Source: Bacteroidota bacterium (GTDB lineage: Bacteria > Bacteroidota > Ignavibacteria > Ignavibacteriales > Melioribacteraceae). From it: a stretch of 7,688 nucleotides of DNA. Positions 2 through 7,610 of this stretch are shown piece after piece. The stretch lies in assembly GCA_021814855.1 (NCBI GenBank), contig JAKAHQ010000070.1:1-7688 (forward strand). Direction: 5' to 3'. The notes beneath the pieces were generated by a model. That model made no database searches, was not told where the DNA came from, and worked only from the letters and a program-made list of their open reading frames with translations. The position numbers and the translations under genes were made by a program. Within the stretch, counting starts at the first letter, position 1, and each line of letters starts with the position of its first letter.

Positions 2-814
2 ACGCCTAAAATTGTAGTCGAAGGATATCTTTGCCCCGGTCAGAAAGTCAGGAACATTCGGGTGACAAGAAATATACCTCTTAATACTTCGCCCAACCCG
101 CTTAGTGTAATTCTATCCGGTGCGGATGTTAGAATCGTTGACTTACAAACGAATAAAGAATTCAATCTTACATATAACCGTACCGATTACGCGTTCGAAT
201 ACAACGGAAGCGATCTTTCAATCAATTACGATGATAGTTACCTCATTAATGTTAACGCCGATATTGACGGAAGAAATTTACAAACGTCGGCAACCACACG
301 CGTACCAAGAGCCGGATTCAAGATTAACTTGGAAAACTCAAACATCCTGCCAATGTATTACCGCGAGCGCGACGAAAATAATAATGTAAAGAATTTCTCT
401 ATCGCTTTTTCACCTTCGCCGGCAACGGAATTTTATGTTTTCTCAATTGTTCCTTTGGATGCAAGCGACTCCACTTTTAATTATGACAACGCTTATGTGG
501 CAGTAGACAAGGAAGACGTGGCTAAGGAACTCGATAGATTTAAATATCAGTTAAGGTGGCTTCAAAACGTTAACTCGTACGGTGAAGAAATTATATTTAA
601 TGTGGATTGGATCAATCTATGGTTTTACGGCAGATATAGAATTATTGCGTATGCCGGCGACGATAATTACAAAAATTACGCTCTCACTTATAAAATGGTC
701 CAGGAGTTCGACGGTAATTTCCACGAGCCAAAGATGAAGTTAAGCGGCGACGGAATTGGCGTCTTTGCTTCGGTTATACCGGATACGGTTTATATCGAGA
801 TAAAGAGAAGATAG
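2..814 (+). CDS. DUF4249-like envelope protein, 3' part only (start outside window)
   Basis: The reading frame is open from the first bases of the window, so only the last 270 residues are seen. The GTG at position 62 is not the true start: the codons before it already encode family-like sequence (IVVEGYLCPGQ, then VRVTR-type strand). The visible part reads as an extracytoplasmic beta-rich protein: an early VEGYL strand, the segment SGADVRIVDL about 45 residues in, a tyrosine-rich middle, and a C-terminal GDGIGVFASV just before the end. This order (VxG.L..G, then A.V.I.D, then a late GGIGVF-type motif) is what I know from DUF4249 proteins of Bacteroidota, which are usually lipoproteins encoded next to TonB-dependent outer-membrane receptors. 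The signal peptide and lipobox would lie upstream and cannot be checked. Function is unknown. The gene converges on the large minus-strand gene, with 154 bp between the stops, so the two are not co-transcribed. Confidence 0.75.
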   Translation, partial: TPKIVVEGYLCPGQKVRNIRVTRNIPLNTSPNPLSVILSGADVRIVDLQTNKEFNLTYNRTDYAFEYNGSDLSINYDDSYLINVNADIDGRNLQTSATTRVPRAGFKINLENSNILPMYYRERDENNNVKNFSIAFSPSPATEFYVFSIVPLDASDSTFNYDNAYVAVDKEDVAKELDRFKYQLRWLQNVNSYGEEIIFNVDWINLWFYGRYRIIAYAGDDNYKNYALTYKMVQEFDGNFHEPKMKLSGDGIGVFASVIPDTVYIEIKRR

Positions 815-968: not shown

Positions 969-3900
969 TTAACTTTTTTTCTCTCTAAGTTTTCTTTCAA
1001 CTGCAAATTTAGCGGATGCAATCGTTTCCCTGTTGACCTTCTCGGTAATTCTGCCGCGTGTAATATCTTCAATTGTAAGGTAACCGTTCATGATAAGCAG
1101 CTGAAGAATCATATTGTTCGCAACTGTATCCGGGCTGTATCCTTCCGCAATATAAAGCCGGTCGGAGTCTTCGTAGAATTCATTTGCAAACTCCGGATTG
1201 CTCGGAAGACTCATCAAATGCTCGTAAGATTCGCTGAATGAGTTCAACTCAATATTTATGTTTGGCGTAACAAGAAGCGGACTAAATTCCTTTGCCGGAT
1301 CAATTGACTCAAACCCTTTAACTCCGGAAAGATCGATCGGCGTTTTCAAGTCATCCACGCGCACAAACCTGGATTTGCGCATTCTTTCCATCTGGAAGAG
1401 AAGGAAATTATACCGGCACACTTCGCTGTTGTGCTTATGGCCGTTAAATATGTGTTTGTATTTTTCATAGACAAGCTGCTGTACAAAATTCTTTTTCTCG
1501 TTGATATCGTGTCTCTGGATTCTAACTTCCTGGATCATCGTTTTCATTTCTTCGGCTGCGGCTTGCGGACCGGAAATTTCCTTACCTTTTCTTCCGAGAT
1601 CGGTAGAAAGAATTCCCAGTTTGATTTTTCTACCGTTGCCGGTGCCGTCGTTTCCGCCTTTAAGTATCTCTATCAAATGCCTGCGCGATTCAAGCTGCCC
1701 TTCTTCCGCCACAAAAGGCTGACCGGCAGGAGTGCTCGCAAGGGCATTGAAAATGTTCATGAATATTTCTTTATCGAGCAAGAAATCGTGCTTTGTATCC
1801 TTCGGCTTATTTTCGTTATCCGGGTCGGGCGTGGTGCATACCGCCGTAGCTGCAAATCTGTTCTTGATAATGTCGAAATTCACCTTGCTTATTTTATAGG
1901 AATTATTTTTTTGTTTGAATTTTTTGCCGACAAAAATTTTATTAATCACGTCTTCAATATCAATCTTATCGATCATCTTATAAGAAGCACAGAGGTAATA
2001 CTTATTTGTAAAGTCATCGAGTTCCCAATCTATAACGTCGTCGATGTAATTGCCGTGCTTATCCATCACCTCGACAATATTTTTATCGCCGGTATAGCGC
2101 AGCAGAGTTCGTTGAAGGTGCGGGTTATCCGAGCTTGTAGCTTTCTCCTTTCTTTCGCCGTGGGAATCGCGATACCACAAAAAGTTTTCCGGATTTTGAT
2201 AACGCGTAATGCCCGCTTCAGCGCGTGCAAAGTTGCTCGCGGTAAGCATTATATCTATCTTAAACGGCATTGTAATATCGCACAAACCGCTTATTGTGCT
2301 TCGCCAGTTTAAATCTTCGATGTTGCTGTCCGCCGCTTTTGCGAATAGCGAATAATAGTACTTAATAAAATCCGGGTCGAAATCCGTTACGCGCGAAAAA
2401 TCGCCTTCCTCAGTTCCCAATCCGTAAAGGTTGCCTTGATCATCGGGGAATAAATAGAACATGTCTCCGGCAATCATTTTAATTGATCGAACGCCCTGCA
2501 AATCTTTTCTAAGCCACTTAAGCATCATCGCCGCGAGCATTTCGGATTTACCAACGCCGCTGTCGCCGCTTATCTGAACGACGAATAAACTGCCGTCATC
2601 TTCCTCAACTGCGAATAACGAACCGTGAACCGGAATTCCACCCATCTCTTTTACTTTTTCGTTCATCATTGTGAGCCACGGCTTCTTGATGTTGCCGAAG
2701 TAATCCACTTCCTTTTTGAGAGGTGTAACCAGCGTTTTAATATTTCCATTCGGTCCCTTCAAATCGAAATACCCGATCTGCGGAAACGACAAAACTTTTT
2801 CGGGCGCGCCGTAGAATAGAATAACGTCCGGCACAAACTTCTTAACGTCTTCAACGCTTATTTCGTCGGCTTGAATTAGCCGGTAGTTATCCGTAAGATA
2901 TTTTATATAACTCTTCTGAAACACATAAAGAATTTTTACAAGACCATGTTTAATAATCTTGCAGCGGTAATCGTTCTCGTCCATATTATCAATAAAGTTA
3001 GCCATTCTTCTTCCAAAGAAAACGGAAGCCGGTTTAATATCCATACTTTTGATAAACTCGTGCGGCTCGGAATAATTTCTTTCTTCGTTTCCGTTTTCGG
3101 GACGGTCTGCTTTATGGAACGGGTAAACGCGTTTCTTTGAATCGGTAACAATACGTGTTCTTGTCTGAACGGTTTGTTCGAGTCCAATTACGCCGCATTT
3201 AGTCATCACTTTTTTAACCCAATCCAAAGTATCGCCGCCGTCGGTTTCCATTTTAAAATCTTTATGAATTGTAATACCGTGCTGAATCATCTCGTTGATG
3301 CTTGAGTTCTGAGTTTTGAATTCGGTCTCGATAAACTTTATCAATGTGTGGTTATACTTTTCATAATATTCCGTCGAGCGGGTTCGATTCATAATGTTGA
3401 TAAGGAAAAGCGATACGTTGCGCACTTCGTTATGAAGTTCCTGCTGGGTAATTTTTATATTGCCGGAAGTCAAAATTCTGCTGTTGATCTCGGCAAGCTC
3501 TTCATTCAGAATATCAAAAACGAATTTTTCCGAAATCATCCTGGCTTCGTTGTCGCTTCTACTCTGAAGGGTTTTATTCAGCAAATCAATTTTCGCCTCT
3601 ATCAATTTTTTCAGCGCATCGTTTCTATCCAGCAGATAAAACCGCAGCAAGCTCTCGTCGTCGGTCAACCCTTCTCTTAGAACAAATTCCTTGCAAGAAT
3701 TTTTAACGTAACCGATCAAAAGGGGTTTAAGACTATCCGCCAAACCGTAATCGGAAACTTGCGTAACAAAATTCTTTACTTCATTTACAAGATTAAACTC
3801 GTTTACGGATTTTCCAACCACCTCTTCAAATTTAACAATCGCGGTGTTGATAATTTCCCGTATGGTCGGCTCGGTGCCGATATGAGCGAACGGAAGATTA

Positions 3901-6900
3901 AAATGAAGAAGCAACTCTTCGATATATTTTCTAAGAATCCTGTTCGTGCCTTCCAGCTTGGCCTTATCGCCGGTTATATCTCTCGACGCATTTAAAGCGA
4001 GTATTTTAACCTTTGAATCCGAGAACAATATTTTTTCCATCTCGATCAATATCTCGGTCATAATATTTTTCTCGTCGGCATCGTCGAGCACATAGCTGTT
4101 GGGCTGGAAATCGATTTTATTGTTGATGTACTTAAGAATTGTCGCCTTTCCGTATTTGGAGACAACCGTATTGAAATCGAGATATTTTATTGCCGGAATG
4201 TTTTTATAAATCTGCGGCAGCAGGTTCTCGTATATTTTTGTAAATGCTTTACTGCCGATGAAGCTTTTTAAATCCGTGCAGCTGCCCACATTCTCGTAAA
4301 ATTCGAATACGGAATTCTTTGAACCGCGAATTGTATTTATTGTAACGCCGGATTCGTTCGGGAATGCGTGGTACAAAGTCATAAACGGATTTATGGTAAG
4401 ACTGTTCTTCGTAACCTTATTTAGATTCCTGATTATGCTGTAGTCTTCAAAAACCTTACTCACAAATTCCAGGTCCGAAGTTGTTTGAAGGATTCCGTCC
4501 AAAATCTCATCCGAACGTTTTTCCTTATTCTTCGGTTCATTTTTTTCTTTGTGGAATAATTTCCAGTACTTCAAGACAATGCGAAGAGAGTTTTCAAATT
4601 CCTTACCGAAAATTTCGTAACTCTGATGCGAGCCCTCTACGTAATCGCCGAGAGAAAATCTTAAAAAGCCGGTTTGATACGGAAGAACCGATATGCCTCT
4701 GTGTTCGGCAAGTTTCTTTGTAAATTTTTCCAAATCCTGGAACGAGAAAAAGTCCTTAAGCAAAATATTGAAGAGATATGAACCGTCGGATTCCAAAATG
4801 GAACAATATTCCTCTGCATCTTCCTTTCTAATCACCTCGGCGGCAATTTGTTTAGCAAGCTGAAGCCGTTTATTGCACTCGCTCCGGAACAGCTTGTTAA
4901 GTCGGAACCGGTTGATTTCTTTTACAAAATGATCCTGATAATATTTATAGAATGGTTCGCCTTTATATTTAAAATCATCGGGCAAACCGAGAACATCCAG
5001 TTTGTCCAGCGAGACGAGCTCGTCGAGGAGAAATAAGTGTAGCGGACTCCCTTCAAACGGGGAAAATCTTTTTATGGATTGTTTCTTCTTAGCGCCGGAT
5101 TTGCGCTCGGCATAACTGACAATTTCATCGTTAACATAATTTTCTATCAACGCCTTGATTTTATAACGCGATGCGTCCTTTGGAAGTTCGCTCTCCATCG
5201 TATCTTTAATTTTTTTTGCAAGCTGCGCCGCTTCAATTGTGTTTACAAGCATAAAGAGCGAGTTTGTATTTCCCCTCTCGATGCTGTTCTGCGCCTTGGC
5301 AAAATTAATTACGTCTTCCCTTGCGGGAGTTGCAATTACTGCGCCGAGTCTATTGCCGGTAGCTCCTAAGTTCTTTGTTGTCGATAAAGATGAAACAATA
5401 CTTATATTCGGCAAAGAGCCGATGTTGTTCATCACGTAACGGGAAATTGTACGCCACTTCGGCTCATCGGGATCGTCAATCTTAATTGCGTCGCTGTATG
5501 CTTCATCCAAAAGTAATGTAATCTTATTATTGTTCATGAACTTCAGGAATTTGATAAGCGCAGGATTGTTGAAGTCAGTATAGCCAGATGGATTCGACGG
5601 ATCATTAATAATAATCGTCAGGTTCTCGCAAAATCTATCCCACAATGTGCCGGTATCGTCGAAAAGCTGGAATGTATTTTTCATTCTATTAAGCCGGTGG
5701 TGCAGCCGCTCAAAGTCGATTCGCTTTTCTTCCGTCAATCCAACTTCGAGGTCGAATGGATTTATATCGAACCTATCTACCGGGAAAAGATCCTTGTATT
5801 CCCACGCCGCGTCTGTATTGAAAATTATGTAGGGGCGAAGTACGGCGTCGAAAAGAAGATCGCGGATAATCATCTGAACATCGTCCGCAATCGAAGTGAT
5901 ATCCAAATTGGCAAGATTACTTATGAATTCCTTAATTACCTTCTGTTGTTCGGGAGTCCGCTTTTTATATTCTTCATTTATACCGATATCAATTAAAAAA
6001 TTTGTAAAGCGCCCCAGGTTATTCGATTCGTTCTCAACCTTGGTGATGAATTCCTTATATTTCTCAAGAAAAAGGTTCACACCAAAATTTTTATGAAAAT
6101 GATTCCGCAGCGTTCTTGTGTAATTGTTGGGAATAATATCTATGATGGTAGTGCACTTATCGATAATTTTTTTGTCGATCTGCTTCAGAGGTCTTTGCAG
6201 AAGATATTCGCCGTATGTTCTTAATTGTCCCCTGCCGCCTCCTTCGACTATAGTAGCAATATTCACCTGCTCAATATTCGAATACATGTAGGCCTTGGTG
6301 CGCGATTCAAACTCGTTGATTAATTCCTCATTAAGCTTTTGAAGTTTAGCCGGCTCCTTACAAGTTTGGATCAGCACAATATAATCGCGAAGCTTTGTAA
6401 TTGCATATTTATCTTTACTAATCTGGCGCGCATAGTCGTTGAATTTATAAAGAGTGATATCTTTCTTAAGATTATCGGTTTGGCCAAGCTGTTCATTTCT
6501 AAACAAGGTCAGTTCCTCTTCATAATCCGCAATCTTTTTTGCAGCACAGATCCGGAATTTTTCAAGGTTCTCATCGTTTACCTTATCCAATATCAATCTT
6601 AAATTGAGCTGTGTGTTTGCCAGAGCGCCAAGTTTTTTTGTATGAACCTTGTTCAACGTATTAATAATTTTATTATGGAATCCGAACACGAGCGAGGTAT
6701 TTGTAGCCCGCGATTCCGGCGAATCATCAACTATAACAATGCGGGTTAGGTACGGAAACCATCTTATATCGTTAAAAATATTTTTACGCATGCTCTTTGC
6801 TTTAACAACGAATATGCTCGTCCGATCATTTTTAATGGATTCAAACAACGAATCCGGATCGGTGAACTCTATAACTTTTACATCCTTAGCATTGAAAATT

Positions 6901-7610
6901 TCGCTGAGGAAAAGATCGATAACCGTATCGGCTCCGCCGCCAACAACCGTGCGGATAAAACCGCTAAGTCCTTTAAATGTAATTGTTAATTCCGTCTTTG
7001 AAAGAAAATCTTTTTTCTCCGCGCTTGTTGTGTAATGAGTACTCTGAATAATCATTTGCTCAAGAACATCCATCAGGTAATTCCATTGGGATTCCTCTAT
7101 ATCTCCGTTCACGCCTATTACATCGCGGAATTTTCTAAGCTCGCCAACGTCGTCCCCGAGAACCAGTTTGTACATCAGATCAATCTGCTTTTGCGTAGCA
7201 GGCGGCGTGCCTATGGAAAAATCGTGTGTCTTGAGAATATTGGCGGTCTGTTTTTTTGCATCTTCATCCACAAGTTCGGTATCTATCAACGACTTCAGCT
7301 TATCGTCGAATTGATATTTCTTGCTTGTATATTGAAACGCTTTGGAATCCTCGTGCGGGAAAAGCATCAACGAAACATCTGCGTAGCCGGGAATTAATTC
7401 TTTCAGTTCAAGAATGTTTCTGTCAATTTCCAAACGTTGACGTGACGGATCGATTGCTTCATCGCAGCAAATCTTTACAAAATTTTTAAGATTATCCGTA
7501 ATATGTTTCGGAAGAAAATTTTCCGATCTCTCCCCTAATAACATATACAGGTTGATTAAGTCCTTTGCATCGGACTGTAAATTCGAAATTGGTTTTCCCG
7601 GTAGTTGCAT
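969..7610 (-). CDS. Giant 2213-aa fusion: PLP aminotransferase-like plus ATP-PEPCK-like enzyme
   Basis: A single uninterrupted frame encodes 2213 residues (about 250 kDa), roughly four to five times the length of an aminotransferase or a PEPCK. The ATG at 7608-7610 is the first possible start, because an in-frame TAA lies at 7623-7625. Visible layout: residues 1-200, mostly helical, unrecognised; 205-345, an alpha/beta segment with GGGAD (224-228) and a hydrophobic strand ending VDDS (about 294-297); 345-455, charged helices; 455-1010, fold-type I PLP module with Schiff-base lysine K746; 1010-1480, largely helical, unrecognised; 1480-2110, ATP-PEPCK-like module with P-loop K1688; 2110-2213, helical tail. 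No signal peptide or membrane segment is seen, so it is probably cytosolic. Both modules keep most recognisable active-site residues, which argues against decay. Known enzymes of these families act on aspartate, oxaloacetate and PEP; a joint role is inference. A regulatory or protein-modifying role is possible. The gene appears monocistronic within the window. Confidence 0.9.
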   Translation of the reverse strand: MQLPGKPISNLQSDAKDLINLYMLLGERSENFLPKHITDNLKNFVKICCDEAIDPSRQRLEIDRNILELKELIPGYADVSLMLFPHEDSKAFQYTSKKYQFDDKLKSLIDTELVDEDAKKQTANILKTHDFSIGTPPATQKQIDLMYKLVLGDDVGELRKFRDVIGVNGDIEESQWNYLMDVLEQMIIQSTHYTTSAEKKDFLSKTELTITFKGLSGFIRTVVGGGADTVIDLFLSEIFNAKDVKVIEFTDPDSLFESIKNDRTSIFVVKAKSMRKNIFNDIRWFPYLTRIVIVDDSPESRATNTSLVFGFHNKIINTLNKVHTKKLGALANTQLNLRLILDKVNDENLEKFRICAAKKIADYEEELTLFRNEQLGQTDNLKKDITLYKFNDYARQISKDKYAITKLRDYIVLIQTCKEPAKLQKLNEELINEFESRTKAYMYSNIEQVNIATIVEGGGRGQLRTYGEYLLQRPLKQIDKKIIDKCTTIIDIIPNNYTRTLRNHFHKNFGVNLFLEKYKEFITKVENESNNLGRFTNFLIDIGINEEYKKRTPEQQKVIKEFISNLANLDITSIADDVQMIIRDLLFDAVLRPYIIFNTDAAWEYKDLFPVDRFDINPFDLEVGLTEEKRIDFERLHHRLNRMKNTFQLFDDTGTLWDRFCENLTIIINDPSNPSGYTDFNNPALIKFLKFMNNNKITLLLDEAYSDAIKIDDPDEPKWRTISRYVMNNIGSLPNISIVSSLSTTKNLGATGNRLGAVIATPAREDVINFAKAQNSIERGNTNSLFMLVNTIEAAQLAKKIKDTMESELPKDASRYKIKALIENYVNDEIVSYAERKSGAKKKQSIKRFSPFEGSPLHLFLLDELVSLDKLDVLGLPDDFKYKGEPFYKYYQDHFVKEINRFRLNKLFRSECNKRLQLAKQIAAEVIRKEDAEEYCSILESDGSYLFNILLKDFFSFQDLEKFTKKLAEHRGISVLPYQTGFLRFSLGDYVEGSHQSYEIFGKEFENSLRIVLKYWKLFHKEKNEPKNKEKRSDEILDGILQTTSDLEFVSKVFEDYSIIRNLNKVTKNSLTINPFMTLYHAFPNESGVTINTIRGSKNSVFEFYENVGSCTDLKSFIGSKAFTKIYENLLPQIYKNIPAIKYLDFNTVVSKYGKATILKYINNKIDFQPNSYVLDDADEKNIMTEILIEMEKILFSDSKVKILALNASRDITGDKAKLEGTNRILRKYIEELLLHFNLPFAHIGTEPTIREIINTAIVKFEEVVGKSVNEFNLVNEVKNFVTQVSDYGLADSLKPLLIGYVKNSCKEFVLREGLTDDESLLRFYLLDRNDALKKLIEAKIDLLNKTLQSRSDNEARMISEKFVFDILNEELAEINSRILTSGNIKITQQELHNEVRNVSLFLINIMNRTRSTEYYEKYNHTLIKFIETEFKTQNSSINEMIQHGITIHKDFKMETDGGDTLDWVKKVMTKCGVIGLEQTVQTRTRIVTDSKKRVYPFHKADRPENGNEERNYSEPHEFIKSMDIKPASVFFGRRMANFIDNMDENDYRCKIIKHGLVKILYVFQKSYIKYLTDNYRLIQADEISVEDVKKFVPDVILFYGAPEKVLSFPQIGYFDLKGPNGNIKTLVTPLKKEVDYFGNIKKPWLTMMNEKVKEMGGIPVHGSLFAVEEDDGSLFVVQISGDSGVGKSEMLAAMMLKWLRKDLQGVRSIKMIAGDMFYLFPDDQGNLYGLGTEEGDFSRVTDFDPDFIKYYYSLFAKAADSNIEDLNWRSTISGLCDITMPFKIDIMLTASNFARAEAGITRYQNPENFLWYRDSHGERKEKATSSDNPHLQRTLLRYTGDKNIVEVMDKHGNYIDDVIDWELDDFTNKYYLCASYKMIDKIDIEDVINKIFVGKKFKQKNNSYKISKVNFDIIKNRFAATAVCTTPDPDNENKPKDTKHDFLLDKEIFMNIFNALASTPAGQPFVAEEGQLESRRHLIEILKGGNDGTGNGRKIKLGILSTDLGRKGKEISGPQAAAEEMKTMIQEVRIQRHDINEKKNFVQQLVYEKYKHIFNGHKHNSEVCRYNFLLFQMERMRKSRFVRVDDLKTPIDLSGVKGFESIDPAKEFSPLLVTPNINIELNSFSESYEHLMSLPSNPEFANEFYEDSDRLYIAEGYSPDTVANNMILQLLIMNGYLTIEDITRGRITEKVNRETIASAKFAVERKLREKKS
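1281..3173 (-). other. ATP-PEPCK-like (PEPCK/HPr-kinase superfamily) module, residues about 1480-2110
   Basis: The segment YFGNIKKPWLTMMN (1637-1650) parallels the E. coli PEPCK stretch YGGEMKKGMFSMMN. Y1637, K1643 and H1662 then have exactly the spacing of Y207, K213 and H232 there (6 and 19 residues), the residues that contact substrate and Mn2+. FVPDVILFYGA (1592-1602) matches the earlier PDFIVMNGA strand. The P-loop GDSGVGKSE (1682-1690) is closer to HPr kinase than to the PEPCK form GLSGTGKTT. IAGD (D1716) takes the place of the LIGDD metal site, with one of the two aspartates missing. NWR (R1770) parallels the NTR around R333. GTGNGRK (1989-1995) resembles the GTGKR segment near the nucleotide. 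The Arg corresponding to R449 is not evident, and R65 has only the R1534/R1535 pair as candidate. About 120 extra residues lie between R1770 and R1994. Family membership is supported by motifs; catalysis is unproven. Domain edges are approximate. Confidence 0.7.
4581..6248 (-). other. Fold-type I PLP aminotransferase / aspartate 4-decarboxylase-like module, residues about 455-1010
   Basis: The core runs in family order. Y497-x4-R502 resembles the N-terminal Y...LR element, followed by a P-Y strand near 590. DPSNPSG (670-676) gives N673, the equivalent of aspartate aminotransferase N194. DEAY (702-705) gives D702 and Y705, equivalents of D222 and Y225. SLSTTKNLGATGNRLG (741-756) gives S743, K746 (Schiff-base lysine, K258) and R754 (phosphate-binding R266), with identical 3- and 8-residue spacing. 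FLRFS gives R984, equivalent of the substrate-carboxylate R386. The GATGxRLG string and the GISVLP segment before R984 are especially like bacterial aspartate 4-decarboxylase as I recall it. K746 to R984 is 238 residues against 128 in aspartate aminotransferase, so a lysine-rich helical insertion of roughly 110 residues is present. Substrate cannot be read; an acidic amino acid such as aspartate is a guess. PLP binding is well supported. Confidence 0.75.
6576..7013 (-). other. Unassigned N-terminal alpha/beta region of the giant protein, residues about 200-345
   Basis: This stretch alternates hydrophobic strands and amphipathic helices: a strand around 207-213, a glycine-rich turn GGGADT (224-229) before a helix, a strand VKVIEF, a strand SIFVVKA, then TRIVIVDDSPES (about 289-300). 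The order strand, Gly-rich turn, helix, strand, strand ending in VDD loosely resembles the front half of a PLP or Rossmann-like fold, but there is no lysine or other diagnostic residue in the right place. It may be a structural or regulatory domain. I do not recognise a family. Confidence 0.35.

Follow-up and report, generated by a model that had tools for sequence, protein, structure and literature searches.

A single gene in the 7,688-nucleotide stretch of DNA analysed here (the window) encodes a 2213-aa protein, P0001, in which a fold-type-I aminotransferase-like half is joined to a divergent module resembling phosphoenolpyruvate carboxykinase (PEPCK). The intact chain, its homology, its invariant motifs, the existence of a split second half and, in predicted models, both folds are established by computation. 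Tentatively, the reading that we consider best for the protein is a single-chain bifunctional enzyme at the oxaloacetate/PEP node. The initial annotation had proposed a fusion of these two enzymes, and this proposal is supported: both modules were confirmed and are kept together in homologues of ~2200 aa.

969..7610, minus strand: complete ORF encoding P0001 (stop codon at 969-971)

P0001 is the one long ORF of the window, running from its ATG at 7610 down to 969 without any internal stop, which bears out the uninterrupted frame claimed initially, to which we add its strand. When the gene was compared with four relatives, the fractions of changes at codon positions 3, 1 and 2 were 0.57-0.58, 0.18-0.25 and 0.10-0.16, respectively, an excess at third positions indicating that the frame is under protein-level selection. 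The dN relative to the window gene was 0.15 (L016) and 0.24 (L015), dS being returned as -1, presumably because of saturation. A partial DUF4249 protein (PF14054, E 2.2e-11), encoded at window positions 2-814 on the plus strand, converges on the giant gene.

We searched a protein collection and found that 364 of 6511 candidates match P0001 at E <= 0.001; the statistics below rest on the 120 listed homologues, P0001 included. Their lengths range from 1758 to 2251 aa, with 118/120 within 2168-2251 aa, the length that the initial annotation had named as support, and two shorter members of 1918 and 1758 aa. The other 119 are 57-82% identical to P0001 over 79-100% of its length, and PF00155 is present in all 120. 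The source labels include Ignavibacteriae, Melioribacteraceae, Bacteroidales and other Bacteroidota, plus single MAGs labelled Calditrich- and Acidobacteriota. At the level of genomes, we observed the fusion gene in 3/395 genomes of the phylum of G001; in its class, 5/294 genomes match, four at full length and one through a marginal generic aminotransferase match, and a Bacteroidales query found the fusion gene in 4/294 genomes. This rarity (3/395, and four full-length genes in 294) counts against the oxaloacetate-node reading. No relatives of P0001 were found in viral contigs and phages, leaving a phage origin unsupported; the sole match in the plasmid collection is one remote PEPCK, and P0001 had no match in the defence-system scan (PADLOC). 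A literature search of open-licence papers found none describing P0001 or an aminotransferase-PEPCK-like architecture.

In some relatives, the second half appears, from sequence comparison, to be encoded separately. Two proteins hold it alone: P0149 (1155 aa, Rikenellaceae, not flagged partial) and P0152 (1171 aa, from a cluster of 20 members whose longest contig has 201,327 bases). Each has its initial Met near residue 1079 of P0001 and extends to the end of P0001. These separate genes could be taken to favour an assembly or frameshift artefact fusing two neighbouring genes in the window, but this explanation is refuted by the full-length chains found in many assemblies and by open frames of 2212-2228 aa in four whole genomes, and we regard it as extremely improbable. 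The G002 copy of the gene is itself broken by two contig ends. Together, the full-length relatives and the third-position changes indicate that selection acts on the chain as a protein and that it did not arise by an assembly error; the possibility, raised initially, that the halves are normally separate and were joined here by mistake is thus excluded, while a natural split form does exist. The products of the separate second-half genes (1155-1171 aa) resemble PPi-PEPCK in length. PPi-PEPCK is described as unrelated to ATP- and GTP-PEPCK in one review (PMC8100219).

The features of the first half are the following.

4542..7355, minus strand: fold-type-I aminotransferase range with large insertions, residues 86-1023 (predicted model)
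5283..5729, minus strand: PF00155 match, residues 628-776 (Pfam, E 2e-10)
6225..6245, minus strand: EGGGRGQ, residues 456-462, presumed PLP-phosphate loop (G457-R460 invariant, 120/120)
5583..5606, minus strand: NDPSNPSG, residues 669-676, NPxNPTG-type motif with N673 (profile alignment and conservation)
5496..5513, minus strand: LLDEAY, residues 700-705, with D702 and Y705 as presumed PLP ring contacts (alignment and conservation)
5349..5384, minus strand: residues 743-754, with S743, presumed Schiff-base K746 and R754 (alignment and conservation)
4647..4670, minus strand: GFLRFSLG, residues 981-988, with R984 as presumed substrate carboxylate arginine (alignment and conservation)

The PF00155 match scores 40.8 bits against a cut-off of 19.7 and recurs in 21/21 family members scanned. 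A profile-profile comparison of the first half with aminotransferases of the host genomes gave E 2.3e-12 (23 loci used, with L046 and L050 set aside by choice, L039 failing the length filter and L053-L056 omitted), and the predicted model has the type I fold of the PF00155 class. The PF00155-type module placed at residues 455-1010 in the initial annotation is therefore confirmed by Pfam, profile-profile alignment and fold, with borders that are wider in the model. Much of the N-terminal part of the ~1000 residues thought to carry no recognised domain falls inside the predicted aminotransferase fold, and what is left without an assigned fold is ~1061-1448 and 2033-2213. Class I/II aminotransferases (PF00155) share with the fusion the NPxNPTG-type, DEAY, SxxK and terminal Arg motifs as well as the fold, but they comprise ~400 residues, whereas the fusion has ~1000 with large insertions. 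As placed by profile alignment, K746, D702, Y705, N673, R754 and R984 are each invariant in the 120 listed sequences; their roles are presumed by analogy with AspAT. Six NCBIfam models match the first half at E <= 1, all far below cut-off, namely GntC, CobD, tyrosine transaminase and three general aminotransferase models; no aspartate-aminotransferase equivalog is among them, which counts against the oxaloacetate-node reading.

Two further assignments in this half were considered and not retained. Residues 1-430 looked by eye like a plausible degenerate second aminotransferase forming an internal pseudo-dimer, but hhalign, with E 0.18 against the host aminotransferases and E 0.053 against P0315, an outsized aminotransferase, does not support this. 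Aspartate 4-decarboxylase, considered owing to the fold match 3f6t and to a GATGxRLG-like motif that we presumed to be indicative of it, was rejected as TIGR03801 does not match P0001 at E <= 1 nor, at E <= 0.001, the fused ORF of any of four genomes.

In the remainder of the chain, we delineated the following features.

3267..4430, minus strand: mostly helical middle with no assigned fold, residues 1061-1448 (predicted model)
1515..3266, minus strand: PEPCK-fold module, residues 1449-2032 (predicted model and homology)
2682..2702, minus strand: YFGNIKK, residues 1637-1643, PEPCK Y-x-G-x-x-K-K motif (alignment and pattern count)
2625..2627, minus strand: H1662, 19 residues past K1643, PEPCK metal histidine position (alignment and pattern count)
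2541..2567, minus strand: GDSGVGKSE P-loop, residues 1682-1690 (alignment and conservation)
2463..2465, minus strand: D1716, PEPCK kinase-2 aspartate position (alignment and conservation)
2301..2309, minus strand: N-x-R, residues 1768-1770, PEPCK substrate arginine position (alignment and conservation)
972..1514, minus strand: mostly helical C-terminal tail with no assigned fold, residues 2033-2213 (predicted model)

The PEPCK fold was matched at residues 1449-2032 of the predicted model, the AF2 models being built from alignments of 86 rows each; the C-half model is moderately confident (pLDDT 77, pTM 0.64), with stretches under 50 within the PEPCK module, which weighs against the oxaloacetate-node reading. 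All 50 fold matches listed are PEPCKs, and the best-ranked solved folds are GTP-type. No PEPCK family model of Pfam or NCBIfam matches P0001 at E <= 1, and at this threshold neither PF01293 nor the HPr kinase family PF07475 was found among the Pfam matches of P0001 and the scanned members. The closest relatives of the module form a stand-alone family of ~590 aa (hhalign E 4.8e-22; translated search E 2e-24; each hhalign E-value here is that of a single pairwise comparison), with 6007 matches of which 120 were listed and 119 aligned, P0238 (701 aa) being removed by the length filter. The source annotation names 13 of the 120 listed members phosphoenolpyruvate carboxykinase, and none of the 120 carries a PEPCK Pfam domain; the module is 26% identical to a Limosilactobacillus protein annotated as PEPCK (E 1e-10). 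This family, which ranges over Armatimonadota, Nitrospirae, Nitrospinota, Moorellaceae, Firmicutes, Dictyoglomaceae and others, with an annotated member in Limosilactobacillus fermentum, is homologous to P0001 residues ~1542-1795 and 1936-2032 and has the YFGxxKK, H, GDSGxGKSE, GTExGxF and NxR motifs of the fusion, at 30-33% identity over the main block. Its members stand alone and have no PLP module; the fusion contains in addition an aminotransferase half, the helical middle, the C-tail and an insertion that separates the aligned blocks. A literature search on the family (P0195-P0314) found nothing.

Profile comparisons link the module to the ATP-PEPCKs of the host genomes (E 2.1e-5, probability 77%) and as strongly to their HPr kinases (E 1.3e-5, probability 80%), the latter over residues ~1660-1783. 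GTP-PEPCK matches weakly by profile (E 0.0033, probability 10%), and aminotransferase profiles, used as a negative control, gave E 0.14. The alignment of the stand-alone family with the host ATP-PEPCKs (E 2.5e-5, probability 75%) covers 263 columns and takes in the N-x-R block. The hhalign register with the host ATP-PEPCKs places Y1637-x-G-x-x-K1642-K1643, H1662 and the P-loop in line. A Y-x-G-x-x-K-K motif with His at +19 from the second Lys is found in 120/120 fused proteins, 118/119 stand-alone proteins and 5/5 host ATP-PEPCKs, against 0/4 host HPr kinases and 0/20 GTP-PEPCKs; the Lys-Lys/His spacing is thus of the ATP-PEPCK type, though the top folds are GTP-PEPCKs. HPr kinase/phosphorylase shares with the fusion a GxSGxGKS P-loop and the HG motif preceding it, but differs by the absence of Y-x-G-x-x-K-K and by a match confined to residues ~1660-1783. 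The HPr-kinase-like P-loop and profile match, the weak match to GTP-PEPCK and the lack of the Y-x-G-x-x-K-K/His pattern in GTP-PEPCKs count against the oxaloacetate-node reading. ATP-PEPCK (PF01293) and GTP-PEPCK (PF00821) differ in having a GLSGTGKT P-loop, compared to GDSGVGKSE in the fusion, whose module lies below Pfam and NCBIfam detection and is joined to an aminotransferase. Judged by its sequence, the second module is best described as a divergent PEPCK-like family outside PF01293. Of the PF01293-type module expected at residues 1480-2110, the fold and the homology to PEPCK thus stood, while PF01293 itself remained silent and the borders shifted to 1449-2032.

Conservation of the presumed active sites is nearly complete. 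We examined 30 positions across the 120 sequences, 13 of them in the aminotransferase and 17 in the PEPCK module; 29 show no variation at all, and the P-loop K1688 is kept in 119/120. The invariant set includes the predicted metal ligands K1643, H1662 and D1716, as well as R1770 and Y1637, which we take to correspond to the PEPCK substrate residues R333/R405 and Y207/Y235 (E. coli/rat numbering), the register being obtained via the stand-alone family, whose N-x-R block is N1768-x-R1770 in the fused protein. P-loop variants are GDSGVGKSE (117), GDSGAGKSE (2) and one sequence without a pattern match. Profile alignments and invariance thus uphold the initial view that most active-site residues of both folds are in correct register, with one PEPCK arginine not placed: no counterpart of the substrate residue R65 (E. 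coli)/R87 (rat) of the N-terminal PEPCK domain could be located, the alignments of that region being unreliable, and this counts against the oxaloacetate-node reading.

The host genomes contain ordinary enzymes of both types. Several aminotransferases are present in all four, HPr kinase in 4/4 and ATP-PEPCK in 3/4, so that the fusion is not needed in these three for the PEPCK step alone, which counts against the oxaloacetate-node reading. In G001, a MAG of unstated completeness, neither ATP- nor GTP-PEPCK was found, and the fusion may be its sole PEPCK-type protein as judged from the genes detected, which would favour the oxaloacetate-node reading.

In the scheme that we tentatively favour, the first half would act as a fold-type-I PLP aminotransferase, forming the Schiff base on K746 and holding the substrate alpha-carboxylate through R984, and would interconvert aspartate + 2-oxoglutarate and oxaloacetate + glutamate. 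Residues 1449-2032 would act as a phosphotransferase of the PEP-carboxykinase type, in which K1643/H1662/D1716 form the metal site, K1688 belongs to the P-loop and R1770 binds the substrate, interconverting oxaloacetate + NTP and PEP + CO2 + NDP or working in the reverse, CO2-fixing direction. We infer that both sites are active and that oxaloacetate is their common intermediate, as we do the phosphoryl donor, the direction and the channelling by which oxaloacetate would be handed from one half to the other. The stronger version, a self-contained aspartate<->PEP machine in which the giant transaminase passes unstable oxaloacetate straight to the divergent PEPCK and spares the cytosol, strikes us as rather doubtful. 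A different intermediate is the main rival, if somewhat unlikely: the PLP half would produce or consume an unusual amino or keto acid, and the PEPCK/HPrK-fold half would phosphorylate it or a related metabolite in place of decarboxylating oxaloacetate. The best family matches of the PLP half, none of aspartate type, would suit such a pair, as would the HPr-kinase-like P-loop, the local match to host HPr kinases and the unplaced substrate arginine; the Y-x-G-x-x-K-K/His pattern, universal in the fused proteins and absent from host HPr kinases, the invariant NxR and the uniform PEPCK fold matches argue for PEPCK chemistry instead. Less probable still is a large allosteric machine with one catalytic half and one sensor, for example a PEPCK-like half binding nucleotide or PEP to regulate the PLP half, or the reverse. 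The large insertions of the first half, the ~390-residue helical middle and the ordinary PEPCKs and aminotransferases retained by the hosts are consistent with it, but sensors usually lose some catalytic residues, whereas the presumed ones of both halves are invariant here, but for the single exception at K1688.

Should the two sites cooperate, the protein would unite a transaminase and a PEPCK at the oxaloacetate/PEP branch point and would offer a direct test of oxaloacetate channelling, as well as a way into the large stand-alone PEPCK-like family; it may then allow some environmental bacteria to couple the metabolism of amino acids with that of sugars within a single molecule. Should the substrates differ, the invariant active sites would point to an unknown two-step reaction.

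Around the fusion gene, no common neighbour was seen by eye among the ORFs listed for the window and five relatives (L001/L017, on one contig, L002, L014, L015 and L016), which counts against the oxaloacetate-node reading. Two of the four host genomes (G064 and G547) also encode this combination of enzyme types, there as individual genes that belong to ordinary families.

L065:4296-8470 and L066:4988-9213, minus strand: aminotransferase/ATP-PEPCK/aminotransferase operon, its ATP-PEPCK being a paralogue

The operon encodes a 405-aa aminotransferase, the ATP-PEPCK and a 396-399-aa aminotransferase, the first two genes overlapping; for both aminotransferases the highest-scoring models are of aspartate type, with scores under the cut-off. 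In other genomes of the phylum, PEPCK is flanked by a relative of the first aminotransferase (57-81% identity) at 14 of 20 loci hand-chosen, not at random, from lower-scoring rows (2-kb flanks), and at 0/29 top-scoring loci (1.5-kb flanks, L019 left out). Transaminase and PEPCK are thus genetically coupled in the phylum by other means, which favours the oxaloacetate-node reading but does not in itself show the role of the fusion; under the version with a self-contained aspartate<->PEP machine, the coupling would have arisen twice.

Upstream of the G064 operon, P0315 is a 1246-aa protein (L065:10381-14121, minus strand, with a run of N near the locus end) that has a WxYxDxFP stretch in common with P0001 (blastp E 4.6e-5). 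A 596-aa protein encoded between it and the operon (L065:8588-10378, minus strand) matches nothing in Pfam (E <= 0.1) or in NCBIfam (E <= 0.001). In another genome, an ATP-PEPCK match at G137:C73:20504-21898 lies within a 1233-aa open frame and is possibly another PEPCK fusion.
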